From: an uncultured Verrucomicrobiota bacterium
GTDB lineage: Bacteria; Verrucomicrobiota; Verrucomicrobiia; Limisphaerales; UBA9464
Length of the DNA: 37,449 nucleotides
Direction: 5' to 3'
Assembly (NCBI GenBank): GCA_903922605.1
Contig: CAIXUG010000007.1
Coordinates: forward strand, 1 to 37,449
Part shown: positions 1,764 to 12,936 of the stretch, one piece after another
Layout of the letters: each line of letters opens with the position of its first letter
How positions within the stretch are numbered: position 1 is the stretch's first letter
The notes under the pieces: model-generated
The model's input: only the letters and a program-made list of their open reading frames with translations
The model's database searches: none
What the model was told of the DNA's origin: nothing
Translations under genes and position numbers: made by a program

Positions 1764-2072
1764 GCACTTTTGGCCCAACGCGAACGGCAGTTGATTAGCG
1801 AGCGGACGAAGGCAGGTCTGGCCGTGGCCAAGCAACGCGGGCCGAAATTTGGCAATCCGCCCCACATTCTGCGCTGCAAAGCGCCCAGACAGCCATTCAG
1901 GCCCGCTAGAAGTGGTTTGTGACTGAGGCGCTAGAGGCCATCGGTTAAATTCAAGGCACGGGCCGTTCAAGCCTGAATCGAATTGCGGATTGTCTGAACA
2001 AGCGAGGGGGAGACAGCGCGAGGCGGACGCTGGACTGCTACAGCCGTTAAGCGCGTGCTCGAATCGCACTAA
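1764..2072 (+). pseudogene. Relic of a serine recombinase (resolvase/invertase) C-terminal half
   Basis: Translation from 1764 gives 'ALLAQRERQLISERTKAGLA' followed by 'VAKQRGPKFGNP', the classic end of a resolvase/invertase catalytic domain (E-R-x-L-I-S-E-R-T-K-A-G-L). Further on, the same frame reads 'TAIQAR', 'EALEAI' and 'SSLNRIADCLNKRG', with stop codons in between at about 1906 and 1947. After a frameshift at about 2010 the reading is 'ETARGGRWTATAVKRVLESH' and a stop at 2072, which is the usual helix-turn-helix end of this family. The N-terminal catalytic half is missing. The relic is GC-richer than the surrounding element, so it came from a different source. It is a dead gene, probably left by an older mobile element. 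Confidence 0.85.
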
Positions 2073-2145
2073 CGAATTACCCGCGATCTGCGCGTTAGAC
2101 CATTTACGGGGTTTCTGATTGAATCTTGGAACAAGACACCAAGGC

Positions 2146-2173
2146 AAAGAAAAACCCGACCAATGGCCGGGTT
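2146..2173 (-). terminator. Rho-independent terminator after the winged-helix-like gene
   Basis: On the minus strand AACCCGGCC pairs with GGTCGGGTT (one G-U pair) around a short loop, followed by TTTCTTT. It lies about 45 bp beyond the stop of the gene ending at 2216 and fits the end of the integrase-linked transcript. Confidence 0.75.
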
Positions 2174-2215
2174 GAATTGTCCAGAAGCGCCGATCCATTT
2201 CCTGAACCGGTTAAA

Positions 2216-2698
2216 TCATTTTTTTGCGGCTGCTACGGTCAGAGTTTGATTCTGCTTCAACTTGTAAAGCTTGGCTTTCTTGCCAGCGGCTCGGGTGCTG
2301 TTCGGATCTTCCGTGATTTCGAGCTTCTTTTTCTGCGCCTCAAGCACCGGCTTAAATTGCGTCGGGGTCATCTTCGTCTCCTCCGCAATCTGCTTCAATG
2401 ACTTGGGTTCACCGGTCAACACCGGATTCAGCCGGCTCACCTTCTCGGCTTCGCTCATGTTGACCCGCTTGGGCTTGGTTCCCGTCTCCGGCTTCGTCTC
2501 CGCTTTCGGAGCCAATGCGGCGGCCAATTCAGCATTTAACGCTTCCAAATCAGCTTCGGCCTTTGCGATCTTTTCGAGAATCGAACCAACTCCCTTTGTT
2601 TGGAGTGCTGCCCAATCCCTTTGAAGTTGCTTCACCTTATCCAAGGAGAATTCATTCACGATGGTGGCGGCTTCGGGGGTGTTTGCTTCGCTGCTCAT
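2216..2698 (-). CDS. Coiled-coil protein with a winged-helix-like C terminus, next to the integrase
   Basis: From the ATG at 2698 the protein has 160 residues. A longer TTG start at 2779 is possible but would abut the integrase stop. The first half is helical and heptad-like ('LEKIAKAEADLEALNAELAA'), followed by a Lys/Thr/Pro-rich linker. Then comes a compact segment 'SLKQIAEETKMTPTQFKPVL', which looks like the recognition part of a helix-turn-helix, and after that a basic beta-wing-like tail. The layout suggests a DNA-binding accessory or structuring protein of the element. It follows the integrase by 84 bp and ends before a clear terminator. I do not recognise a named family. Confidence 0.55.
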   Translation of the reverse strand: MSSEANTPEAATIVNEFSLDKVKQLQRDWAALQTKGVGSILEKIAKAEADLEALNAELAAALAPKAETKPETGTKPKRVNMSEAEKVSRLNPVLTGEPKSLKQIAEETKMTPTQFKPVLEAQKKKLEITEDPNSTRAAGKKAKLYKLKQNQTLTVAAAKK

Positions 2699-2782
2699 TT
2701 GCTTTATTCGATTTGTGTGTTTTTGAATTGTATCTTGGTGACGTGTAGAGCTGTACGGCTTCAATCTATCAATCGTCAATTG

Positions 2783-3943
2783 TTATTTTGAAAGCATGTT
2801 CCAAAAAGTGTCCAAGTTCTCTTTGGAGGTCGGGCGCATATAGTATTTCTTCGATGTTTCCTTGTCATGCCCATAGCGGAATTCCACCAGTTGCCAGTCC
2901 TTAACCTTGGCGTAAAACATGGACACACTGGTATGTCGCAATCCATCGGACACCCACTCCAGATGCAGTTTATTCTTAATTTCGGCGCGAAACAACGTCG
3001 CTTGATGTTTTGCGAACTTCGGGACCAACGGCATATCCGGGAAATATTCCTTACGGTGCTTGAGGTATTCCATGACTGAGCTTTCCGCGTGGATATACCT
3101 TGCGCCGGTTTTTCCCCGTGCATCCACGGAAATCTCGGATGTTTCAAAATTGACGTCGGCCCAAGTCATCCGGTAGCATTCGGACGGTCTGGCACCAACC
3201 CAAGTTGCCAATGCAAAGAAACTGGCCATATGCGGCAAATGCTGTTCCGTATATTCTAGCATCCGTCGAATGTCCTGAACACTGTAAATCTGAATCTCCG
3301 TTTCCTTGACTGCAATTTCAATTCCCTTGGCGGGGTTAGGAATCGCAATCTTCTTTTTCTCAATCAGCCATTTGTAAAACATGCTAACATATAGCAAATA
3401 CCGACGCTTGGTCTGTCCGCCAGTGCCTTCTTTTTCGGAAATGGCAGTTTCAACCATTGCCTGTGTGACTTCGTTGCATTTGAGTTTCCCCCAATGACTA
3501 TTGATCCAACCGCAATAGGATTTGCAGTCCCGAAGTGCTCCCTTGGTAATTGGTTTTAATTTGTTTTCCGCCTTGTAAAGAAACCACTCATTGACAAGCG
3601 ATTCAACTTCGGGATAAGCAATAAATGATTGTTTTGCCTGTTCCTCTTTGAACCGGTTAAGAACAGATTCAATTGTAATGCCGGGCGGTAACCCATCTTC
3701 CAAATTCTTCAATCGGATATTCTCAGCATCCGATTTCATTCTAAGCCCAATTGAGCCATTATTTAAAAACTTAGCTCCGATTTCATCGGACAGTTTCAAG
3801 GCTTCGTTTTCGGAAGTCCGCTTAAATTGTGTATTCATCCCATGATGACGGGAACGGCAATCAATCATATAGATTGTTTTTCCACGTTGAGAATATTTTG
3901 TGACTCTAGGGAATGATTTTCTGATTAGTTTTAGTTTAGTCAT
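2783..3943 (-). CDS. Tyrosine recombinase/integrase
   Basis: 386 residues from ATG 3943, which has AGGA 9 bases upstream (a GTG at 3961 gives six more residues). There is an N-terminal arm and SAM-like core-binding region (about 105-215), then a catalytic domain. Visible catalytic residues are R252 in 'GARPSE', K278 in 'RGKTGAR', R336 in 'DGLRHT' (the first box histidine is replaced by Asp), H359 in 'YGHD', and the nucleophile Y367 or Y368 in 'KKYYMR'. All residues expected for strand exchange are present, so the enzyme may be active. It sits at the right edge of the AT-rich left segment, near the change to GC-rich DNA, as expected for the integrase of an inserted element. The 216-bp gap to the next gene should contain an attachment site, but no duplicate is visible inside the window. 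Confidence 0.9.
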   Translation of the reverse strand: MTKLKLIRKSFPRVTKYSQRGKTIYMIDCRSRHHGMNTQFKRTSENEALKLSDEIGAKFLNNGSIGLRMKSDAENIRLKNLEDGLPPGITIESVLNRFKEEQAKQSFIAYPEVESLVNEWFLYKAENKLKPITKGALRDCKSYCGWINSHWGKLKCNEVTQAMVETAISEKEGTGGQTKRRYLLYVSMFYKWLIEKKKIAIPNPAKGIEIAVKETEIQIYSVQDIRRMLEYTEQHLPHMASFFALATWVGARPSECYRMTWADVNFETSEISVDARGKTGARYIHAESSVMEYLKHRKEYFPDMPLVPKFAKHQATLFRAEIKNKLHLEWVSDGLRHTSVSMFYAKVKDWQLVEFRYGHDKETSKKYYMRPTSKENLDTFWNMLSK

Positions 3944-4159
3944 AAGCAAGCATCCTATCACATGTTTGATGTCCTACGCAATGTCTCAATAATGACACAT
4001 TCACTTTTCTTCGCTGTTGCCTGCCTTCCCATCTTCCCGCAGTTTCTCGCCGCCAGAAAACTTGTGACCGACTTGTGACCAAAACTGCATATTCGTCAGC
4101 CGGTGACTTGTGTAACAGGCTGAAAAGCAAGCACATGGAAACATTAACTGAGCAAAACG

Positions 4160-4771
4160 ATGTCTGAGTCGAAGGAAGATTCACCGTTGGACCGTCTGTG
4201 GAAGGAGTACGCGCTTTCCTTCCGCGAGTTCGACGATCTCACGCTCGCGCGCTGGTGCGCCCAGACGCTGGGGCAGCTGCACGGCCGCGTCTGGCGGCTG
4301 TCGCATCCGCTGGTCGGGGCCTACCGGCTGGCAGCCCAGCTGGCCCATGACCGCCAGGTCTGGCTGAAGCGGCTCGTGAACATGCCCGCCGGCTACCTCG
4401 AAGCCCCCTGCTGCCGCGCACCGATCCTGCCGCTCTTCACCCGCGACATCGCCGACAACGGGCTCATCTGCCAGCACTGCGGCGAGAGCTGCCAGGCGTT
4501 TGTCGATTTGCCTGCGGACCTGCAGAACAAATTCCGGCTCTGGGCCGAATCCTACCGGCCCGTCCACGACGTTGCCCATTGGGACGACAAGCGCCGTAAG
4601 AAGGTCCGTGACTACGACGCCGCGTTTGAGAACGCCGCGCAGCAGGCCGAAAAACTTCTCGCCGATGCTGCGCACGATCTCGTGCCGATCCTGCTCGACC
4701 ATCATCCGGCCGCCGTCTGGGAGGATCAGGACGAGTGTCTGGAGGTCCGTCCCGAGGACATCTCCCTTTGA
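4160..4771 (+). CDS. Conserved hypothetical protein with a Cys-rich zinc-binding motif
   Basis: 203 residues, soluble by eye. The middle carries two cysteine pairs, 'APCCRAP' and 'ICQHCGESC', about 22 residues apart, suggesting a small zinc knuckle. The flanks are helical and rich in Trp, Leu and Arg. It is the first gene of the GC-rich backbone right of the integrated element. GAGGA inside its last codons may serve the next gene, whose possible TTG start at 4768 overlaps this stop. I do not recognise a family with known function. Confidence 0.65.
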   Translation: MSESKEDSPLDRLWKEYALSFREFDDLTLARWCAQTLGQLHGRVWRLSHPLVGAYRLAAQLAHDRQVWLKRLVNMPAGYLEAPCCRAPILPLFTRDIADNGLICQHCGESCQAFVDLPADLQNKFRLWAESYRPVHDVAHWDDKRRKKVRDYDAAFENAAQQAEKLLADAAHDLVPILLDHHPAAVWEDQDECLEVRPEDISL

Positions 4772-4776
4772 GCGCA

Positions 4777-5409
4777 ATGCTGACGCCGACGCGCTTCCGC
4801 AAGATCATCTGCGTGCTGCTGGTGCTGTGCGGGATTGCCCTCGTGGTGCTCGTGGCCCTCGTGGCCAGCTTTGACTGGCTGGTGAAGCGCTCGATGATGC
4901 TTGCCTTGAGCCGCGCGACCGGCGGCGACGTCCAGATCGAGCGGGTGCAGGTCGGCTTCCGGCAGGGAATGTTCCACGTCGAACAATTGCGCCTCCTCAA
5001 TCCGCCCGCGTTTGGCGGCGGCCCGATGCTCGATTTGCCGGAGTTCTACGTGGCCTACGACCAGGCCTCGGCCGTCACCAACGCGCTGCACCTGAAGGAA
5101 GTCCGCGTGAACCTGGCTGAAATCGGCATCGTGATCGACGCCCAGGGGCGTACCAATCTTCTGTCGCTGGGCCGCGGCCTGCAGAAGCTGTCGGACTCGC
5201 AGACGAACAAGCTGTCCAAGCTGAACTTCACCGGCATCGACAAGCTGACCGTCACCCTGGGGCAGGTGACCACGGTGGACCTGCGCCAGCCCGGCCACAC
5301 CAACGTGATCCGCCTTGGCCTGCGCAACGAGGTGCTCCGCAACGTGCGCACCGAGGCCGACCTCATGCCGCTGGTCATCAAGCTCCTCCTCAGCGGCAAC
5401 CTGAAATAG
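4777..5409 (+). CDS. Membrane-anchored AsmA-like protein
   Basis: 210 residues from ATG 4777. A TTG at 4768 with GAGGA 9 bases upstream, overlapping the previous stop as TTGA, is an equally good start. A single N-terminal membrane segment ('KIICVLLVLCGIALVVLVAL') is followed by 'GGDVQIERVQVGFRQG' and 'LRLLNPPAFGGG'. The latter is the N-terminal pattern of AsmA/DUF748-type proteins ('i.l..l.l.NP.gf'), which are long, inner-membrane-anchored proteins linked to envelope lipid transport. This one is short and holds only the first part of such a fold. It probably forms an operon with the Cys-rich protein upstream. The exact role is unknown. Confidence 0.65.
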   Translation: MLTPTRFRKIICVLLVLCGIALVVLVALVASFDWLVKRSMMLALSRATGGDVQIERVQVGFRQGMFHVEQLRLLNPPAFGGGPMLDLPEFYVAYDQASAVTNALHLKEVRVNLAEIGIVIDAQGRTNLLSLGRGLQKLSDSQTNKLSKLNFTGIDKLTVTLGQVTTVDLRQPGHTNVIRLGLRNEVLRNVRTEADLMPLVIKLLLSGNLK

Positions 5410-5787
5410 GTCCGCTGGGAAGAGGGTGGGGTCATCCTCCGCTCTTCGGCGAAAATGGACGCTGGAGTTGCCGGAAGCGCGGACCGATCACCCTCAGGGC
5501 CACCCCGCTTCCCCCCTCTACCGAGGGGAGAGAATCCACGACCCAAAGCCGCGAATTGTGGCCCTGAACCCTCTTTTCGTAAGTCCTTGGAAATCAGCGC
5601 ATCGTCGGGAGGGTTCATGGGTAATGAGGGTGAGGGGAAAGGAGACTCGCCTGCTTCAAGGCCCCACCCGCTCGCAATCCGAGCGGCCCATCCTGGCTCG
5701 GCCGCAAAATTTCAATAACCACTCAAATCGGCGGGAAAACGTTTCCGCGATTGCCGCGACGGCTCCAAAACCGTTACAAACCGCCCG
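5410..5787. other. Intergenic region without a convincing gene
   Basis: 378 bases between the AsmA-like and RodZ-like genes. Open frames cross it on both strands, but they lack family resemblance and have odd Pro/Arg/Ser-rich translations, as expected from GC-rich noncoding DNA. Runs such as CCCTCTACCGAGGGG and GAGGGTGAGGGG look like short degenerate repeats. No RNA or promoter could be called with confidence. Confidence 0.5.
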
Positions 5788-6297
5788 ATGCCTACCGTCG
5801 GTGAACAATTCCGGGCCGAGCGCGAGCGCCAAAAGCTCACGATCCATCAGGTCGCGGATGCCACCAACATCAAGACCGACCACGTCCGCGCGCTGGAAGA
5901 CAGCAACTGGGCGGCCTTTGCCGCGCCCGTGTACATCCGCAGCTTCGCGCGCAACTACGCGCGCCACCTGAAGCTCGATCCGACGGTACTGGTGGCCGCC
6001 CTCGAGGCCGAGCTCGGCCAGACGGCCGACTACGCCGGCCCGCCCAGCCTGGAGCGCCGCGAAAAGGGGCCGCTTGACGCCGTGATGCTGCTGCTCTCGC
6101 GCGTGAAGTGGCAGTGGGTGTTCCCGGTGGTGCTCGTGGCCGGCCTGATTCTGGTCGGCTACTGGGCCGTGAACGCCTGGAAGCAGAAGGCCAACCGCGA
6201 CCCTCTGAGCGGCCTGGGCAGCGGCCTCTACCAGCCGAAGAAGACCGGTGCGGGCACACTGCCCCTGCCGACCAACGCCCCGGCCGGCCGGCACTAA
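5788..6297 (+). CDS. RodZ-like helix-turn-helix membrane protein (short form)
   Basis: 169 residues. The N-terminal 70 match the HTH_25 domain of RodZ-type proteins: 'GEQFRAERERQKLTIHQVAD' followed by 'IKTDHVRALE' and 'YIRSFARNYARHL'. A membrane segment lies at about 108-128 ('WVFPVVLVAGLILVGYWAV'), followed by a short Gly/Pro-rich tail. RodZ links the MreB cytoskeleton to cell-wall synthesis; its HTH binds MreB rather than DNA. The C-terminal beta domain (DUF4115) of full-length RodZ is absent here, so this may be a shortened RodZ or a related membrane regulator. It stands alone, with repeats and a tRNA downstream. Confidence 0.75.
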   Translation: MPTVGEQFRAERERQKLTIHQVADATNIKTDHVRALEDSNWAAFAAPVYIRSFARNYARHLKLDPTVLVAALEAELGQTADYAGPPSLERREKGPLDAVMLLLSRVKWQWVFPVVLVAGLILVGYWAVNAWKQKANRDPLSGLGSGLYQPKKTGAGTLPLPTNAPAGRH

Positions 6298-6332
6298 AGG
6301 GTGCGTGAAGCACCACGGGAGAGAGCGGAACT

Positions 6333-6419
6333 AAACCGCTGATCCACACTGATCTACGCTGATAAATTGCGTTCGGATGCCCTTGCATCAGTGCCGATTA
6401 GTGTGGATCAGTGGTTTAA
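6333..6419. repeat. Imperfect inverted repeat, family copy 1
   Basis: Left arm 6333-6363 (AAACCGCTGATCCACACTGA...) and right arm 6389-6419 are reverse complements over about 31 bp with about 5 differences, mostly of the kind that still allow G-U pairs. A second member of the same family lies at 19099-19183. Each arm is itself built of ~9-bp units of the type (C)CACTGAT. It follows the RodZ-like gene and could form a long stem in its transcript. Confidence 0.8.
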
Positions 6420-6501
6420 AAATCTCTGGCCATCGGCGGCTGCCGGAACAAACTCGTTGCCGGGTCGGAGTCCGCTCATTAGCTTCCGCGCCGTCCTACG
6501 T

Positions 6502-6578
6502 GCGCGGGTAGCTCAACTGGATAGAGCGTCGGTCTCCGAAGCCGAAGGTTGTGGGTTCAACTCCCGCCCCGCGCACCA
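6502..6578 (+). tRNA. tRNA-Arg (anticodon CCG)
   Basis: All arms are visible. The acceptor stem pairs GCGCGGG (6502-6508) with CCCGCGC (6568-6574). The D arm is GCTC/GAGC. The anticodon stem has loop CTCCGAA (6534-6540), giving CCG at 6536-6538. The T arm has loop TTCAACT. The discriminator A is followed by an encoded CCA (6576-6578). It reads the arginine codon CGG. It lies 48 bp before a guanidine-III riboswitch on the same strand with no terminator visible in between. Confidence 0.95.
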
Positions 6579-6610
6579 TTTTCCGCCAGTTTCCAGGCCA
6601 ATTTAAGCAC

Positions 6611-6667
6611 GCCGTCACCCGACGGCCCGGACGAGGTGCGCCGTACCCGGTGAGGACAAGACGACGC
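6611..6667 (+). promoter_or_regulatory. Guanidine-III (ykkC-III) riboswitch controlling gdx
   Basis: Bases 6627-6667 closely follow the guanidine-III aptamer: P1 arms CCGG (6627-6630) and CCGG (6647-6650), the conserved ACGAGGTGCGCCGTACC loop (6631-6647), and a downstream GAGGACAAGACGACGC (6652-6667). The last of these can form the pseudoknot by pairing ACGACGC with GCGCCGT (6638-6644, one mismatch). The aptamer senses free guanidinium and turns on exporter genes. A perfect 6-bp hairpin GCCGTC-ACCC-GACGGC (6611-6626) sits directly 5' of P1 and may stack on it. The GGAG ribosome site of gdx (6671-6674) is only 3 bases after the aptamer, in a small hairpin CGATG/CATCG (6667-6681) that shares a base with the pseudoknot. 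Control of translation initiation is therefore likely. The class call comes from remembered consensus plus the matching downstream gene. Confidence 0.92.
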
Positions 6668-6682
6668 GATGGAGAACATCGT

Positions 6683-7006
6683 ATGTCGTGGGTTCTGCTG
6701 ATCATCGCCGGATTGCTGGAGACTTGCTGGGCCGTGGGCCTGAAGTACACGCACGGCTTCACCAAACCGCTCCCCTCAATCCTCGTGGCCATTGCCATCG
6801 TGGGCAGCATGGTTTTGCTGGCCCTGGCGGTCCGCAACCTGCCCATCGGGACGGCCTACGCCGTGTGGGTGAGCATCGGAATTCTGGGCATGGTCGTGGC
6901 CCAATGGTGGCTCTTTGAGCAGCCTCTGCGCCCCGCGCAGCTGGTTTTCCTGACGCTCCTCCTGATTTCGGTGGTTGGTCTGAAGCTGACCTCGGTGGAG
7001 CGGTAA
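6683..7006 (+). CDS. gdx: Guanidinium exporter, small multidrug resistance family
   Basis: 107 residues, four membrane segments. The start 'MSWVLLIIAGLLETCWAVGL' is close to E. coli SugE/Gdx, including the essential glutamate E13 in 'GLLE', 'KYTHGF' and 'LPIGTAYAVW'. Gdx proteins work as antiparallel dual-topology dimers that export guanidinium in exchange for protons. A longer frame runs upstream through the tRNA, but ATG 6683 is set by the family length and by GGAG 8 bases before it. The guanidine-III riboswitch immediately upstream independently supports the Gdx rather than the multidrug (EmrE) subtype. It converges with the acetyltransferase gene, whose stop is 2 bp away. Confidence 0.95.
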   Translation: MSWVLLIIAGLLETCWAVGLKYTHGFTKPLPSILVAIAIVGSMVLLALAVRNLPIGTAYAVWVSIGILGMVVAQWWLFEQPLRPAQLVFLTLLLISVVGLKLTSVER

Positions 7007-7008
7007 AC

Positions 7009-7539
7009 TTACGGTCCGCCGTTCGCCGCCAGTTCAGCCATGCGCTCAAGCCCTTCGCCGGTGACGCGCATCACCGTCCAGTCATCCATTGGACGGGCGC
7101 CCAAAGCCTTGTAGAAGCGGATGCTGGGTTCGTTCCAATCCAGCACGGCCCATTCGTAGCGTCCGCAGCCGCGCTGGTGGGCCAGCCGGCCAACGTGGAG
7201 CAGTAGCGCCTTGCCGAAACCGCGGGCGCGAAATTCGGGCAGCACGAACAGGTCCTCCAGGTGGATGCCGGGCTTGGCGAGGAAGGTGGAATAGTTGTGG
7301 AAGAACAGCGCGAAGCCCACGGGGCGCCCGTCCAGCTCGGCCAGCACGACTTCGGCGCGCGGCGTCTGGCCGAAGAGGGTGTCGCGCAGCGTTTCCTCGG
7401 TGGCGACCACCTCGTGCAGCAACCGCTCGTAGGTGGCGAGCGCACGGATGAACCCGAGGATGGTGCCGACATCGGCCGCAGTGGCCGGACGAATCAAAAA
7501 GCCCGGCGGCAAACCGGGCTTGGTAGGTTGATCGCTCAT
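7009..7539 (-). CDS. GNAT acetyltransferase, diamine/polyamine type
   Basis: 176 residues from ATG 7539. A GNAT fold is evident: 'LIRPATAADVGTILGFIRAL' at the start, 'HLEDLFVLPEFRARGFGKAL' as strand 4 plus the acetyl-CoA pyrophosphate loop (R-x-x-G-x-G/A), and 'WNEPSIRFYKALGA' near the end. The sequence, with 'ATYE', 'HNYSTFLAKPGI' and 'LDWN', resembles spermidine/spermine and thialysine N-acetyltransferases (SAT2-like), which acetylate small amines. It is convergent with gdx and follows the glutaredoxin gene on the same strand after a 140-bp repeat-bearing gap. The substrate is not certain. Confidence 0.85.
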   Translation of the reverse strand: MSDQPTKPGLPPGFLIRPATAADVGTILGFIRALATYERLLHEVVATEETLRDTLFGQTPRAEVVLAELDGRPVGFALFFHNYSTFLAKPGIHLEDLFVLPEFRARGFGKALLLHVGRLAHQRGCGRYEWAVLDWNEPSIRFYKALGARPMDDWTVMRVTGEGLERMAELAANGGP

Positions 7540-7578
7540 GTCAGGCAGAAGCGGGCAGGAATGAACGACCAAGACACC

Positions 7579-7656
7579 AAGGAACGAAGGAGGGGCAGAA
7601 AGACCCAAAGAAGTTCGCTTTTCAGTTCCCTTCGGAACTTCGTTTCTTCGTTCCTT
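7579..7656. repeat. Inverted repeat of AAGGAACGAAG words between glutaredoxin and GNAT genes
   Basis: AAGGAACGAAG (7579-7589) and its reverse complement (7646-7656) flank further related words (AAGAAGTTCG, CCTTCGGAACTTCG). It resembles the other gap-specific repeats in this window. It might act as a weak terminator for the glutaredoxin transcript. Confidence 0.6.
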
Positions 7657-7679
7657 AGTTGTTCAACTCCGTTCCGAGC

Positions 7680-8042
7680 TCAGCGCCGAAAGGCGAGCGG
7701 AGCCGGGGCGGCTTGCGCGCCGGGCATCTCATGGGCGCAGGGCTGGTTGATCGGCACTTCGGGCACGATGTCATTCGGCGTCACGACGTTGTTCTGGAGC
7801 ATCCAGGCCTCGATTTCCTCGCCGCTGACGTCGGCCAAAATGTGGCCGCCGATCTCGACGCAGGGCTGCTTCATCTGGCCCGTCTTCTCCACCATCTCCT
7901 GGTAGTTGGCGTAGTTGTTGATGATGTCGCGGTCGTCGAAAGGGAGGCCGTATTTCTTGAACACGGCGCGGACGCCGCCGCTCCAGCCGCAGGAGGGCTT
8001 CAGCCAGGCGATGATCGTGGGTTTCGGTGCGGTCGTTGTCAT
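7680..8042 (-). CDS. Glutaredoxin-like protein
   Basis: 120 residues from ATG 8042. A thioredoxin-fold pattern is visible: 'TIIAWLKPSCGWSGGVRAVF' with the active-site cysteine in C-G-W-S (monothiol-like, compare CGFS), then 'YGLPFDDRDI', 'KQPCVEIGGHILADVSGEEI' with the cis-Pro before Cys, and a 30-residue Pro/Ala-rich tail. Monothiol glutaredoxins handle iron-sulfur clusters or glutathione adducts. It is divergent from the molybdoenzyme/Rieske pair (125-bp gap), so a shared regulatory region is possible. A role in supplying the Rieske cluster is speculation. Confidence 0.8.
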   Translation of the reverse strand: MTTTAPKPTIIAWLKPSCGWSGGVRAVFKKYGLPFDDRDIINNYANYQEMVEKTGQMKQPCVEIGGHILADVSGEEIEAWMLQNNVVTPNDIVPEVPINQPCAHEMPGAQAAPAPLAFRR

Positions 8043-8166
8043 AAGGCTGGAGTCTGGCAGCGGAACGGCATCTGGCAAGAGTCCGGCTCAAAACTTCCGG
8101 CGCCGATTCCGCGCCGTCTCGGACTTGGCGCTTGGGATTTTTCGCCGTCGTCGTCAGTCTTTGGGC

Positions 8167-9348
8167 ATGGAACCTGGTCTGCTCTCGCGTCGCGACCTGT
8201 TGCGCGGCTCGGTCGCGCTTGCCGCCTATGCGCTGGCGTCTCGGCCGCTCGCGACCTTTGGCCTCGAACCCGCCGCTGGCGAGGAACTGATCCCGTTTCT
8301 CGATGGCCAGCCCTATGACGTCAAACGCCCGATGCTGCGCTGGGCGAACCTCACGAACTGGATCACGGCGAACGAGGAGCTTTACGAGGTCACGCATTAC
8401 CCGCACCCGAAGATCGACCCGGCCACGAAGCCGGCGGATTGGAAGGTCGCCTTCACCGGCTATCTGAAACGCCCCACCACGCTCACACTGGCCGACCTGC
8501 AAAAGCGTCCGCACAGGACCATCACGGCGACGTTGGAGTGCGGCGGCAACGGCTCGAATCCCGGTTTCTCCGGCGCCTGCGGGAACATCCGCTGGACCGG
8601 TACACCGCTCGGCCCGCTGTTGCGCGACCTGGGCCTGATGCGGCGTTCCGAGGAGATCGTCTTTTATGGTTCCGACGAGAAGGTGGAGAAAATCCGCGAC
8701 AAGGATTTCCCGCAGAACTTCGCCCGCAGCCTCACACTGGAGCACGCTTTGCGTGAAGAAGTACTGCTCGCTTGGGAGATGAATGGCCAGCCGCTGCTGG
8801 AGCAGCATGGCTTCCCGTTGCGGCTGATCGTGCCGGGCTGGTTCGGCATCGCGTGGGTCAAGTGGCTCAAGCGCGTGGATGTGCTCGACCGGCGCTTCAT
8901 GGGCAAATGGATGGCGCGCGAATATGTGACCATCCGCGGCGAGGAGCAGGGGCACGACTGGATGAACTGGCGCGAGACGAGCGTGTGCAATATCGGCGTG
9001 AAATCGGTCACCGCCCGGGTCGTGCGGCGGTCGGATGGCAGCGTGCGGGCGAGCGGCGCGGCCTGGAGCGACGGCACGCCGCTCAAGGCGGTTGAGGTGA
9101 AGATTGATGATGGCCCCTGGCGCCCGGCCGTGATCGAGAAGAAACCGGCGCGAGGACTGGACACCCGGTTTACCTGGAGCTTCTGGCACCTCGACTGGCA
9201 CGACGCCACACCGGGCGAACACACGATCGTCTCCCGCGCGACCGACGAGGATGATCGAATTCAGCCGGCCGCCGACGACCCTACGATGAAGAACAAAGCC
9301 ACCTACTGGGAAGCGAACCAGCAATGGGTGCGGAAGGTGCGGATTTGA
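8167..9348 (+). CDS. Tat-exported sulfite-oxidase-type molybdopterin enzyme
   Basis: 393 residues from ATG 8167. The N terminus 'SRRDLLRGSVALAAYALASR' is a twin-arginine signal, so the folded enzyme is exported with its cofactor. The core is an oxidoreductase molybdopterin-binding domain (about 90-260), with the molybdenum ligand C125 in 'TLECGGNG' and with 'GNIRWTG', 'HGFPLRLIVPGWFG' and 'VKWL'. A Mo-co dimerisation immunoglobulin-like domain follows (about 270-390), with 'GAAWSDG' and 'VEVKIDDGPW'. Family members oxidise sulfite or related substrates. The Rieske gene 12 bp downstream is probably the electron partner. No cytochrome c gene is present nearby. Confidence 0.88.
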   Translation: MEPGLLSRRDLLRGSVALAAYALASRPLATFGLEPAAGEELIPFLDGQPYDVKRPMLRWANLTNWITANEELYEVTHYPHPKIDPATKPADWKVAFTGYLKRPTTLTLADLQKRPHRTITATLECGGNGSNPGFSGACGNIRWTGTPLGPLLRDLGLMRRSEEIVFYGSDEKVEKIRDKDFPQNFARSLTLEHALREEVLLAWEMNGQPLLEQHGFPLRLIVPGWFGIAWVKWLKRVDVLDRRFMGKWMAREYVTIRGEEQGHDWMNWRETSVCNIGVKSVTARVVRRSDGSVRASGAAWSDGTPLKAVEVKIDDGPWRPAVIEKKPARGLDTRFTWSFWHLDWHDATPGEHTIVSRATDEDDRIQPAADDPTMKNKATYWEANQQWVRKVRI

Positions 9349-9360
9349 GCTTCTCCGCTG

Positions 9361-9690
9361 ATGAAGGAGTTTGAAATCACCGCCGAAGCGAACGGGCTGC
9401 GCGACGGTCAGGCTGGCCCGGTTGACGTTCCGGGCAAGCGGCTGGCGCTTGTGCGACTGGAGGGCAAATTCTACGCTTTGGAGAATGCCTGTCCGCATCG
9501 GGGCGGTCCGCTGTCCGTCGGCTACCTGGACGGCTGCCGGCTGCATTGCCCGCTGCACGGCTGGGGCTTTGATGTCACCAGTGGCGCCTGCGATGTGAGG
9601 CCGGACCAGCCGGTGGCCACGTATCCGGTCGAGGTGCGCGAGGGAAGGGTGTGGGTGCGGTTGGCGGAGAGTGAGCCAGTAGGTCAGTAG
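9361..9690 (+). CDS. Rieske [2Fe-2S] ferredoxin-like protein
   Basis: 109 residues. Cluster ligands C44/H46 in 'CPHRGG' and C63/H66 in 'CPLHGWGFD' give the full C-x-H...C-x-x-H signature. The length and layout match small Rieske proteins of the NirD/dioxygenase-ferredoxin type, which pass single electrons. No signal peptide is visible, unlike the exported partner upstream, so either it travels with that enzyme or the pairing is cytoplasmic. The last residues (PVGQ) and the stop codon are made by a 29-bp repeat (9675-9703) that recurs at 35886-35914. Confidence 0.9.
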   Translation: MKEFEITAEANGLRDGQAGPVDVPGKRLALVRLEGKFYALENACPHRGGPLSVGYLDGCRLHCPLHGWGFDVTSGACDVRPDQPVATYPVEVREGRVWVRLAESEPVGQ

Positions 9691-9703
9691 GTCAGTGAGT
9701 CAG
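9675..9703. repeat. 29-bp CAGTAGGT-type tandem repeat, copy 1
   Basis: Three to four ~9-bp units (CAGTAGGTC, CAGTAGGTC, CAGTGAGTC). The 29 bases differ at only one position from 35886-35914. It overlaps the end of the Rieske gene and provides its TAG stop. Confidence 0.85.
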
Positions 9704-9750
9704 AGGAAAGCGCGCATCCGCTGTCCGCTGTCCGCCGCAATTCGGAACTC

Positions 9751-9786
9751 GTAAATCGTAAATCGTAAATCGTAAATCGTAAATCG
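9751..9786. repeat. Five GTAAATC heptamers before the glycosyltransferase
   Basis: Five perfect tandem GTAAATC units end 6 bp before the GTG start of the glycosyltransferase gene. They occupy the place where a ribosome site would be expected, and none is seen. Copy number could tune expression. Confidence 0.85.
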
Positions 9787-9791
9787 CCCCC

Positions 9792-10946
9792 GTGCCGCCG
9801 CTCCGCGTCCTCACCGTCACCAACTACTTCGCCGGCCTCGGCGGGGTGGAGTCCATTGTGCGCGGCCATCATGAGCACGATGCGGCGCAGGGTATCGACT
9901 CGCGCTTCATCGCCTACTGGGAGCCGCCGCCGCAGGGCTGGCCCCGGGCCACGGCGCTCGATTTGCGCGAAAGCCTCTCGATCGCCGAGGCGCGCCGACG
10001 GTTTGCGAATTCCTTCCCCGACTTTGCGCCCGAGGTGGCCGTCTATCACACCGACTGGGGCTGGCCGTTTTTCACGAGCCTGGACCGGGCTCCCCGACGC
10101 ATCCTTTACCTGCACAGCGATACGCCCGGTCTGGATGGCAAGCTGGCGAGTATGGTGCATTGGGCGGACGGCTTTGTTTGCGTCAGTGACAAGCTGGCCG
10201 AGCGCGTGCGGACGCATCTGCCCGGCCTGTCGGCGGACCGCTTGCTCAAGGTGGACGCCGCCATCGACGCGCCGGAACTCCCCGTGCGGAACGATGCACC
10301 CGCCGGCCGTCCGGTGGTGCTGGGCTTTTGCGGCCGGGTGGTGAACGAGCAGAAGCGGGTGAACCGGTTTCCCGAACTCGTCCAGCGGCTCGACGCGCTG
10401 GGCGTGGCATATCGGATCGAATTCCTGGGCGATGGACCGGAACGCGCCTGGCTGGAAGCGCAACTGCCCGACCGGACAAAGTTCGTCTTCCACGGCCGGC
10501 GGAGCGGGGCGGATTACTGGCGCTTCGTGACGGGCTGGGACGCGATCGTCTTCGTCAGCGATTACGAGGGCACGCCGCTCGCCGAGCTGGAGGCGATGGC
10601 CGTGGGTGTGCTGCCGCTGCATCCGCGCCTGGACAGCGGGGGCGACCATTACGCGGACAAGGTGGACCCACGGCTGGTGTATCCTCCGGGCGATTTGGCG
10701 GGGTTGGCGGAAAGCATCCGTTGGATCAGTGCGCTGAATGCTGGCGAGTGGAACACCCTGCGGACCCGGTCGCGTTCGGCCATGTCAGCGCATCTCGGGG
10801 ATGACTACCGGCGGAAATTCACCGAGTTTGCCCGCCGTATTGCCACGCTGCCTCCCTTGGAGAAGCGTCCGCTGCCCCGCTGGTATTTTCCCAAGGACCG
10901 GCTGACGTTCGGGATGATCCGCCGGCTCAGTGAATGGCGGCGGTAG
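9792..10946 (+). CDS. Glycosyltransferase family 4
   Basis: 384 residues from GTG 9792, without a clear Shine-Dalgarno. It has a GT-B fold. The N-terminal acceptor domain begins 'LRVLTVTNYFAGLGGVESIV', with a Gly-rich loop. The C-terminal sugar-nucleotide domain includes 'VVLGFCGRVVNEQKRVNRFP', 'FLGDGPERAWLEAQL' and the E-x7-E motif in 'YEGTPLAELEAM'. GT4 enzymes transfer sugars from nucleotide donors with retention and usually build surface glycans. The gene converges on the polysaccharide operon at 11195-16361, fitting a joint role. The sugar and acceptor are unknown. Confidence 0.88.
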   Translation: MPPLRVLTVTNYFAGLGGVESIVRGHHEHDAAQGIDSRFIAYWEPPPQGWPRATALDLRESLSIAEARRRFANSFPDFAPEVAVYHTDWGWPFFTSLDRAPRRILYLHSDTPGLDGKLASMVHWADGFVCVSDKLAERVRTHLPGLSADRLLKVDAAIDAPELPVRNDAPAGRPVVLGFCGRVVNEQKRVNRFPELVQRLDALGVAYRIEFLGDGPERAWLEAQLPDRTKFVFHGRRSGADYWRFVTGWDAIVFVSDYEGTPLAELEAMAVGVLPLHPRLDSGGDHYADKVDPRLVYPPGDLAGLAESIRWISALNAGEWNTLRTRSRSAMSAHLGDDYRRKFTEFARRIATLPPLEKRPLPRWYFPKDRLTFGMIRRLSEWRR

Positions 10947-10958
10947 CGGATCTTTTTC

Positions 10959-11196
10959 AACGTCCAACGTCCAACGCTGAACGTCCAACGTTCAAAGCCC
11001 GAAAACTTCCGACTGTTCGTGGCCCAATCGTCGTTCGCAACGGACGAACTGTCCCAAGGCACCGGTCGGGGAGACCGAAACTCTGTCCATGATTCCGCAG
11101 ATGAACAGCGCGGTTGGAGCCTCTTTCGCACAGACGCCTCCGACCTGAAGCGTCTTCCTTTGAACGTTGGACGTTCAGCGTTGGACGTTGGACGTT
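10959..11196. repeat. Perfect 39-bp inverted repeat around a 160-bp spacer
   Basis: Bases 10959-10997 are the exact reverse complement of 11158-11196. Each arm consists of 10-bp-like words (AACGTCCAACGTCCAACGCT...). It fills the whole gap between two convergent genes, and its right end overlaps the stop codon of the methyltransferase gene. The spacer has no ORF worth calling. It could be a bidirectional transcription barrier or a small non-autonomous mobile element. Confidence 0.92.
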
Positions 11197-11983
11197 AATC
11201 TTCCTTCCGCCCCACCCCGGGCTTGCGGGCGCGCACCGCCACGCCGACGTAGATCGGTGACCAGTGATCCGCCGGCACCACGGCGTGGTGGGCAAAACGG
11301 TCCGCGAACCAGTTCAGCGGGGCTATGGTGGTGAAGCCGTAAATCTTTCGGATCACTGCCAGCAGGCGGTGCCAGAGCGGATATTCGGGGGCGTACAACG
11401 CCGCGATGAGGTAGTGATGCAGCTGGATCGAGCCGCGCACGCCGCCCACGAGTTTGTGGCTGGATTCCACTTCCAGACCAGCGGCGGCGATGGCGACTTC
11501 GAGCCCGCGCGCGGTCCACCGGTAAAAATCATAAGGGCAGCCATGCTCCTCGAACATCCCGTGCGTGGTGACCAGCAGCCGGCCCCCCGGCTTAAGAATG
11601 CGGAGGCATTCGCGCAGATAGGCGGCGGGGTCGGAGACATGTTCGAGCACCTGCGTGGAAAGCACGGCGTCATAGCGCGCGTCGGGCTCCTCGGTGAGTC
11701 CGTTTGCGGGGAGCAGGCGGTCCACGTTGGGGCCGGGAGTGATGTCGGCCCGGACATATTCGCCAATGCCCGTGAACAGGGGGCGGTAGGGCGCACCACC
11801 GCTGCCGTAATCGAACAATTTCCCCTGCACCGAGGCGGCAAACGGCCGGACTTCTGCGAGCACGTCGGACAGGATCAGGTAATGCGGGTCGGTACGCCGG
11901 GGCCGCAGCCGGTCGGCCATGTAGGCATCGGCATGGAGCACGGTGCCGAGTTCCACGCCGCCACTGGGTGCATTTTTGTTCAT
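11195..11983 (-). CDS. SAM-dependent methyltransferase (class I)
   Basis: 262 residues from ATG 11983, chosen because it overlaps the upstream stop as ATGA. The upstream extension of the frame is a low-complexity Arg/Pro translation of the neighbouring gene. SAM-binding pieces are 'GKLFDYGSGGAPYRPLF', 'ADITPGPNVDRLL', 'YDAVLSTQVLEHVSDPAAYL' and 'LKPGGRLLVTTHG'. These fit Methyltransf_11/23 enzymes that modify sugars or lipids in glycan clusters. It is the last gene of a five-gene operon with a flippase. The substrate is not known. Confidence 0.85.
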   Translation of the reverse strand: MNKNAPSGGVELGTVLHADAYMADRLRPRRTDPHYLILSDVLAEVRPFAASVQGKLFDYGSGGAPYRPLFTGIGEYVRADITPGPNVDRLLPANGLTEEPDARYDAVLSTQVLEHVSDPAAYLRECLRILKPGGRLLVTTHGMFEEHGCPYDFYRWTARGLEVAIAAAGLEVESSHKLVGGVRGSIQLHHYLIAALYAPEYPLWHRLLAVIRKIYGFTTIAPLNWFADRFAHHAVVPADHWSPIYVGVAVRARKPGVGRKED

Positions 11984-12936
11984 GGCGCTCCGGCCGGTTT
12001 GCGATAAAGCGCGTGCAAGCTGATGCCACGTCGCACGTAGCGGCGGGCGAGCAGGACGCGATAGACGAAGGTGACGGCTTCCGGCCACAGCCGGCCGGGA
12101 GGGGATTTGCGGCGGCCGAGCAGATGTTCGAGTTCGCGTTGCAACCGGAGGTAGAAGCGGAGCTGCACGCCGCGCAGTTCGTCGCCGTCGAGGCTCACGA
12201 TTTCGAGACGGTTCTGTTCGCCCAGCCGGCGAAGATCCGTCGCGCGCCAGCGGGTGAGATGGTGCGGCGGCCACTGGTGCGGCTCCAACGAACACAGCCG
12301 GTGCACGCCCTCGTTGTTCGGCACAGCGATCGCGAGGTAGCCGCTGGGTGCGACCAAAGCTGCCGCCTCGCGGAAAAACGCGGCCGGATCGGGAACGTGT
12401 TCCATCACCTCGAAGGACGTGACCAGGGGGAAGCGGCGCTCGGGCCGGGTCGCGGCAAAATCCTCGGCGGTCTGGTTGATCACCTCATGTCCGCGTTCGC
12501 GGCAGCCCGCAACGGCCTGGACGTTCAGATCCAATCCGTGAGTCGCCAACCCCTCGGCTTTCGCCAGATCCAGGAAGGCGCCGCTGCCGCAGCCGAGGTC
12601 CATCACCTCGCGCAGGCCATGCGTGCGCGCGGCGGCCAGGGCGCGGGTGAAGGCCGGGCAGGTGACCGGATAATAGTCGCGAATCTGCCGCTGCAAATCC
12701 TCGTAGAAGGGCGAATTGCCGGGCAGCACCGGCGAAAAAAATTGGAAACCGCACCCGCCGCAGCGAAGGAGTTCGATGTGCCGGTGGCCATTGAAGAGCG
12801 CCTGCGCCGCCGGCGACAGCTTCACGCCCATGTGAAACCACAGCTGCTCCAATTCGGGCGGGGTGAGCGCATCCAGCGGTTCCAGGGAGTCGGAACCGCA
12901 GAGCAGGCAGCGCGGCTTGGCGGGGGCGGATGACAT
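11980..12936 (-). CDS. SAM-dependent methyltransferase with N-terminal zinc-binding motif
   Basis: 318 residues. Two cysteine pairs near the N terminus ('CLLCGS' and 'CGGCGFQF') form a zinc site as in sugar C-methyltransferase-like proteins. The SAM domain includes 'VMDLGCGSGAFLDLAKAEGL', 'HGLDLN', 'VTSFEVMEHVPDPAAFFREA' and 'LVAPSGYLAIAVPN'. The C-terminal third is basic and may contact membrane or substrate. Start ATG 12936 lies 8 bp after the flippase stop, and the stop overlaps the next methyltransferase start by 4 bp. Confidence 0.87.
   Translation of the reverse strand: MSSAPAKPRCLLCGSDSLEPLDALTPPELEQLWFHMGVKLSPAAQALFNGHRHIELLRCGGCGFQFFSPVLPGNSPFYEDLQRQIRDYYPVTCPAFTRALAAARTHGLREVMDLGCGSGAFLDLAKAEGLATHGLDLNVQAVAGCRERGHEVINQTAEDFAATRPERRFPLVTSFEVMEHVPDPAAFFREAAALVAPSGYLAIAVPNNEGVHRLCSLEPHQWPPHHLTRWRATDLRRLGEQNRLEIVSLDGDELRGVQLRFYLRLQRELEHLLGRRKSPPGRLWPEAVTFVYRVLLARRYVRRGISLHALYRKPAGAP

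Follow-up and report, generated by a model that had tools for sequence, protein, structure and literature searches.

The gdx leader of an uncultured Verrucomicrobiota bacterium appears to be an ordinary guanidine-III riboswitch of the known class, placed ahead of a putative guanidinium export gene in the 37,449-nucleotide stretch of DNA analyzed here (the window). The aptamer, its conserved pocket, the Gdx-type gene, and the overlap between the aptamer and a hairpin at the ribosome site can be read from the sequence itself, and we infer from them both the binding of guanidinium and the direction of control. The RNA is very probably a translational ON switch, and we hold with high confidence the full model, in which the leader switches gdx translation on by exchanging the 3′ strand of P2 between the pseudoknot and an 11-bp hairpin. 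Without guanidinium, this strand (6661–6667) would pair with 6681–6689 to form the 11-bp hairpin, which would confine the ribosome site to a five-base loop and occupy the start-codon region. Guanidinium binding would stabilize the P1/P2 pseudoknot and its triplex and thereby withdraw 6661–6667; the hairpin would then be reduced to four weak pairs, the ribosome could start gdx, and the gdx product would export guanidinium.

Table 1 Features of the gdx leader and its surroundings, in window coordinates.
Feature	Position	Strand	Remarks
tRNA-Arg (CCG) gene, encoded CCA	6502..6578 (Rfam 6502-6575)	+	ARAGORN, Rfam
Guanidine-III riboswitch, full Rfam match	6606..6670	+	62.3 bits, E 1e-10
5′ hairpin, 6 bp, loop ACCC	6611..6626 (6611-6616/6621-6626)	+	position of the first hairpin in RF01763
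41-nt pseudoknot core	6627..6667	+	39/41 identical to Thermobifida fusca (L081)
P1 of core	6627-6630/6647-6650	+	4/4 pairs
P2 of core	6638-6644/6661-6667	+	6/7 standard pairs, seventh C.A
Ligand-contact nucleotides	C6 = 6632, G7 = 6633, G17 = 6643	+	contacts from the available part of PMC5696562
C15 (6641) opposite A38 (6664) in P2	6641..6664, end bases	+	same C.A in 35/127 listed aptamers
Competing 11-bp hairpin, proposed OFF state	6661..6689	+	-12.7 kcal/mol (predicted)
Small ribosome-site hairpin CGATG-GAGAA-CATCG	6667..6681 (6667-6671/6677-6681)	+	-4.8 kcal/mol; tip of the longer hairpin
GGAG ribosome site	6671..6674	+	8 bases to ATG
gdx, putative SMR-family guanidinium exporter, 107 aa + stop	6683..7006	+	Pfam PF00893, E 1.8e-26

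The class assignment, proposed in an earlier note with a covariance-model search as its check, was confirmed by Rfam cmscan: the window matches Guanidine-III (RF01763) over model positions 1–67 of 67, with a score of 62.3 bits compared to a gathering score of 36. Only two Rfam matches in the window were above the cut-off, the tRNA and this riboswitch, both on the + strand, and the genome search gave one guanidine-III copy in the window's own genome (G000). The probability that the resemblance arose by chance is negligible. No point in favor of chance was found, and it is refuted by the E value of RF01763 over the window. The correct position and strand of the aptamer ahead of gdx also speak against it, as do the genomes G004 (same genus) and G610, which likewise carry the aptamer before gdx. 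Guanidine as the ligand is supported by homology.

The comparison set consisted of 127 parsed aptamers, at least 120 of them from an exact-pattern scan of named genomes and seven from the window's genome and its phylum relatives. This set is biased: the pattern fixed P1 and most of the core, so that in 120 of the 127 variation was possible only at positions 10, 11, 13–15, 38, 40, and 41 and in the joining loop. One locus below the Rfam cut-off (L127) did not fit the parser and was dropped. By our own rule, 111 of the 127 aptamers among the matches listed precede an SMR-like ORF, 12 another or misread ORF, and 4 none that was found; the start-codon rule misread some loci (e.g., L010, L033, L057, L065, and L109). 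Some Streptacidiphilus and Kitasatospora aptamers (L056, L057, L065, and L108) are followed by a short ORF that carries EQ.VQILGS in its start and is non-SMR by the rule.

The gene behind the window riboswitch, which starts with the ATG at 6683, is of the Gdx-type SMR kind, as previously suggested. Besides the Pfam match (Table 1), the closest solved relative of its product is 6wk5, which we take to be Gdx-Clo (E 4.3e-27, aligned over 104 residues). The best NCBIfam model was SugE, with 106.6 bits, below the cut-off of 126, and the Gdx type was therefore assigned by residues and not as a SugE equivalog: the Gdx marker W16 and the residues E13, S42, Y59, and W62 are all present. According to the available part of PMC7695847, from which the roles of these residues are taken, W16 separates Gdx from Qac proteins. 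Because of the SMR family, the 6wk5 relative, and W16 with the other Gdx residues, guanidinium export is the likely job of this protein.

The 41-nt core differs from that of T. fusca by two changes, C26 to G and G38 to A, and is identical to the cores of L128, from another family of the order, and of L067 (Nannocystis). It forms an H-type pseudoknot with a P1 of 4 bp and a P2 of 7 bp, one of them C.A. With the numbering and contacts of the T. fusca guanidine-III paper (PMC5696562, available part), the guanidine-contacting C6, G7, and G17 are all intact. The same text reports a Kd of 60 µM for guanidinium in this class. The pocket has a side opening, and guanidine-III is reported there to bind methyl-, amino-, and ethylguanidine and agmatine as well, so the sensed compound might be a substituted guanidine. 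We find this very improbable, as the pocket nucleotides of the window are unchanged and the gene behind the aptamer encodes a Gdx-type protein that has the known substrate residues.

A hairpin on the 5′ side of the core had been taken for an addition to the aptamer. The perfect 6-bp stem does exist, but RF01763 has a hairpin at the same place in its structure line, and the candidate addition was therefore rejected as part of the model. By a simple rule, a stem of at least 4 bp abuts the core in 98 of the 127 listed loci, compared to 39% of shuffles; among the matches listed, the share is 80 of 97 in Actinomycetota and 18 of 30 in the others. By the same rule, T. fusca has no core-abutting stem.

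That the mismatch in P2, an A opposite a C, is a peculiarity of this copy was not borne out. A private mismatch was rejected, since C15.A38 recurs outside Actinomycetota in the sample: it is found in 28 of the 30 listed aptamers outside the named Actinomycetota, the window included, compared to 7 of 97 in Actinomycetota. Among the matches listed, the 30 divide into 21 of 23 named and 7 of 7 unnamed loci (the latter including the window), and A38 itself is present in 30 of 30 compared to 14 of 97 actinobacterial loci. On this distribution, the mismatch looks like a lineage-typical state and not like damage in the window copy. Nearest-neighbor energies alone predict a weaker P2 (−5.3 vs −12.5 kcal/mol), and the C.A may lower the affinity.

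The related copy in G004 (L002; L129 7772–7834) scores 48.1 bits. Its core has G3 changed to A and U18 to C, both within bases 1–18, and from core base 19 to gdx codon 3 it is identical to the window, so the platform is unchanged. No other listed locus departs at these pairs, whose positions the pattern fixed in 120 of the 127. The G004 aptamer may be weakened, or its changes may stem from the assembly. At the GNAT gene adjoining gdx, G004 also has a segment of ~1.4 kb with two ORFs (L129 5876–7254), flanked by a repeated piece of the GNAT gene. If the window riboswitch were itself weakened or decaying, as its low predicted P2 stability and the changed G004 copy could suggest, gdx would be effectively constitutive. 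This is quite improbable: C.A is usual outside Actinomycetota among the listed aptamers, apart from this pair the window core is canonical and matches that of two distant loci exactly, and the gdx frame is open in both the window genome and G004, between which 25 codons differ, 15 of them by synonymous changes and 10 by replacements.

In T. fusca, the C15-G38 pair takes up G10 as a third strand in a base triple (PMC5696562, available part). Among the listed aptamers, every A10 occurs together with C.A (20 of 35 vs 0 of 92, Fisher p 3e-14), also when only unique aptamers among the matches listed are counted (10 of 20 vs 0 of 61), and base-triple covariation with position 10 is suggested as a lead. 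On the gdx tree, C.A changes only three times, which leaves two to three independent pairs, so that a test for covariation at position 10 cannot reach significance; lineage explains much of the association. This tree of 47 rows, made by a quick method after three of every four actinobacterial rows were dropped, sets the 21 actinobacterial rows apart from the others (SH-aLRT 99) and groups the window with G004 and G610 (88) near acidobacterial and myxococcal proteins. It is a tree of riboswitch-linked proteins only, since the extraction rule found no Gdx proteins in L132–L138, the seven loci with Gdx and without the riboswitch, in which no Rfam family reached its cut-off.

Two wider and speculative readings, which we rate as unlikely, are that guanidine-III has two structural subtypes following exporter phylogeny, an actinobacterial one with a C15-G38 triple and a general one with C15.A38, and that the gdx mRNA in this lineage is cut from a tRNA-Arg transcript. 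The C15.A38 of the general subtype would perhaps be a protonated wobble, position 10 being A or G. If there are two such subtypes, the solved structure is the form of a single phylum. Position 38 may already read A or G in the published guanidine-III consensus. We found no discussion of C15.A38, nor of a tRNA-linked guanidine-III copy, in the available parts of PMC5696562, PMC12186494, PMC7736828, PMC7266159, PMC7695847, and PMC11410670. Next to the T. fusca structure the C.A in P2 resembles damage, but it recurs within the class and deserves its own binding and structure measurement.

The small hairpin with the GGAG site exists as first described; of this site, the first G is part of the stem and GAG of the loop. 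The hairpin shares C6667 with P2. The mutual exclusion of pseudoknot and ribosome-site hairpin that had been proposed holds in that the structures overlap, but not through this single base, since the 4-bp remainder of the small hairpin without the shared pair (GAUG/CAUC, −2.4 kcal/mol) is compatible with the folded aptamer. The 11-bp hairpin, which uses all of 6661–6667, is a likelier OFF state than the 15-nt hairpin alone. It is predicted to consist of the stems 6661–6665/6685–6689 and 6666–6671/6677–6682, a bulge of A6683 and U6684, and a loop of 6672–6676. In the minimum-energy fold of the leader, the small hairpin is joined by an outer stem to give the 11 bp, and the start codon contributes its A and U as the bulge. 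The hairpin is predicted to pair the whole seven-base P2 3′ strand and also pairs with the start-codon region. The minimum fold of a 135-nt piece keeps the 11-bp hairpin and loses the 5′ hairpin to pairing with the coding sequence. GAG of the GGAG is unpaired in the loop of the predicted OFF hairpin, and occlusion therefore rests on the small loop and on the start-codon pairing. In L128, whose platform differs, the predicted fold again pairs core bases 31–37 over the start codon. In three genomes of the same class (L123, L124, and L125), a hairpin GCAC...GTGC overlaps the last two P2 bases, with differing inner stem sequences.

The coupling between aptamer and platform was compared to shuffled sequences. 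After 1000 dinucleotide shuffles behind the core, 8 folds were as stable, 52 paired all seven P2 bases, and 1 did both; a wider 46-nt piece folded unexceptionally (z −1.5, 14 of 200 shuffles). Removing the P2 3′ strand from the window platform costs 10.4 kcal/mol, and 2 of 100 shuffles lose as much. Over 107 listed loci (the 127 aptamers minus 20 left out), the mean cost is 7.62 kcal/mol compared to 5.18 in shuffles, with a Wilcoxon p of 5e-15 that is overstated because the rows are related; singly, 20 of the 107 have p < 0.05. In a direct duplex test over the listed loci, pairing between the P2 3′ strand and the leader was more stable than in shuffles (mean percentile 0.34); the window leader alone was unremarkable (0.44). 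Four other segments were scored in the same way: two were no better than shuffles (0.51 and 0.57), one was worse (0.76), and the fourth, which overlaps the P2 3′ strand by two bases, beat shuffles too (0.34). The mean accessibility of the window start region rises only from 0.42 to 0.53, a gain that 14 of 100 shuffles equal. Over the 107 listed loci the gain is 0.052 compared to 0.022 in shuffles (p 0.008; singly in 12 of the 107). It lies above shuffles for the 25 non-actinobacterial listed loci (p 5e-4), but the 82 actinobacterial loci show no such excess (p 0.38).

A predicted competing hairpin that uses the P2 strand accords with ligand-on expression, without proving it. The translational ON model as understood by Huang et al. 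2017 (PMC5696562) and by a 2025 review (PMC12186494), in the available parts of both, is supported. For T. fusca, Huang et al. state that the region can form secondary structure near the ribosome site and that ligand binding probably exposes this site; the predicted folds of the window fit their model with a closer spacing.

An unusual feature of the locus is the tRNA-Arg gene on the same strand, whose end lies 27 bases ahead of the riboswitch match. A tRNA within 400 nt upstream was found in 7 of the 127 listed loci, 6 loci having a shorter upstream sequence; five of these seven are tRNA-Cys on the other strand, and among the listed loci only G000 and G004 have the tRNA on the same strand. 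Consensus scans gave no sigma-70-like promoter in 6290–7100 and no terminator-like site between tRNA-Arg and gdx, and the tRNA-Arg gene, with its promoter, is the probable source of the gdx transcript. If the gdx mRNA is cut from the tRNA-Arg transcript, tRNA processing would set the 5′ end for RNase E scanning into the aptamer. The aptamer could instead act chiefly on mRNA stability, the folded pseudoknot blocking RNase E scanning and the leader hairpins adding little. We regard this as a less likely alternative: the available part of PMC12186494 cites Richards and Belasco 2021 for such an effect of guanidine-III, and a transcript beginning at the processed tRNA 3′ end may carry a 5′ monophosphate, but in the window the ribosome-site hairpin incorporates the P2 3′ strand, and such coupling exceeds shuffles over the 107 listed loci as a set. 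Control of mRNA stability and the control of translation that we favor are not exclusive of each other.

Guanidine-III matches turned up in 2 of 58 relatives; for the order the count was 3 among 293 genomes, and for the phylum 6 among 387 (five over the cut-off). Each count includes the window's own genome and rests on filters that lose weak matches. The window adds a patchily distributed guanidine switch in a probably verrucomicrobial lineage; a 16S site in G000 is complementary to probe EUB338-III, which marks Verrucomicrobia. In the other six genomes of the genus that were searched, gdx had no match. The rodZ-tRNA-Arg pair is kept in G005 and G007 with a different sequence behind it; rodZ is present in G002 and G003, with no tRNA in the stretches examined, and had no match in G001 and G006. 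From this comparison, the riboswitch-gdx module was either gained or lost behind tRNA-Arg. A tyrosine recombinase of the phage integrase family is encoded on the minus strand at 2783–3961, 2.5 kb before tRNA-Arg. When window positions 2001–12000 were compared to G004, DNA similarity started only at 5427.

Compared to known systems, the window shares with the T. fusca structure 5NWQ the P1/P2 H-type pseudoknot, the pocket of C6, G7, and G17, and an SMR gene directly downstream, and it has the 5′ hairpin in common with the RF01763 model. It differs from the T. fusca locus in having C15.A38 in place of C15-G38, a tRNA-Arg gene just upstream, and only 3 bases from core to GGAG, compared to a distance of 16 nt from the ribosome site given for T. 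fusca (PMC5696562, available part). The Gdx protein has E13, W16, S42, Y59, and W62 in common with 6wk5, whereas 6wk5 has T63 G64 where the window protein has V63 S64. V63 is common among the riboswitch-linked set, and S64 was found only in G000, G004, and G610 among the 26 non-actinobacterial SMR proteins compared from the matches listed.
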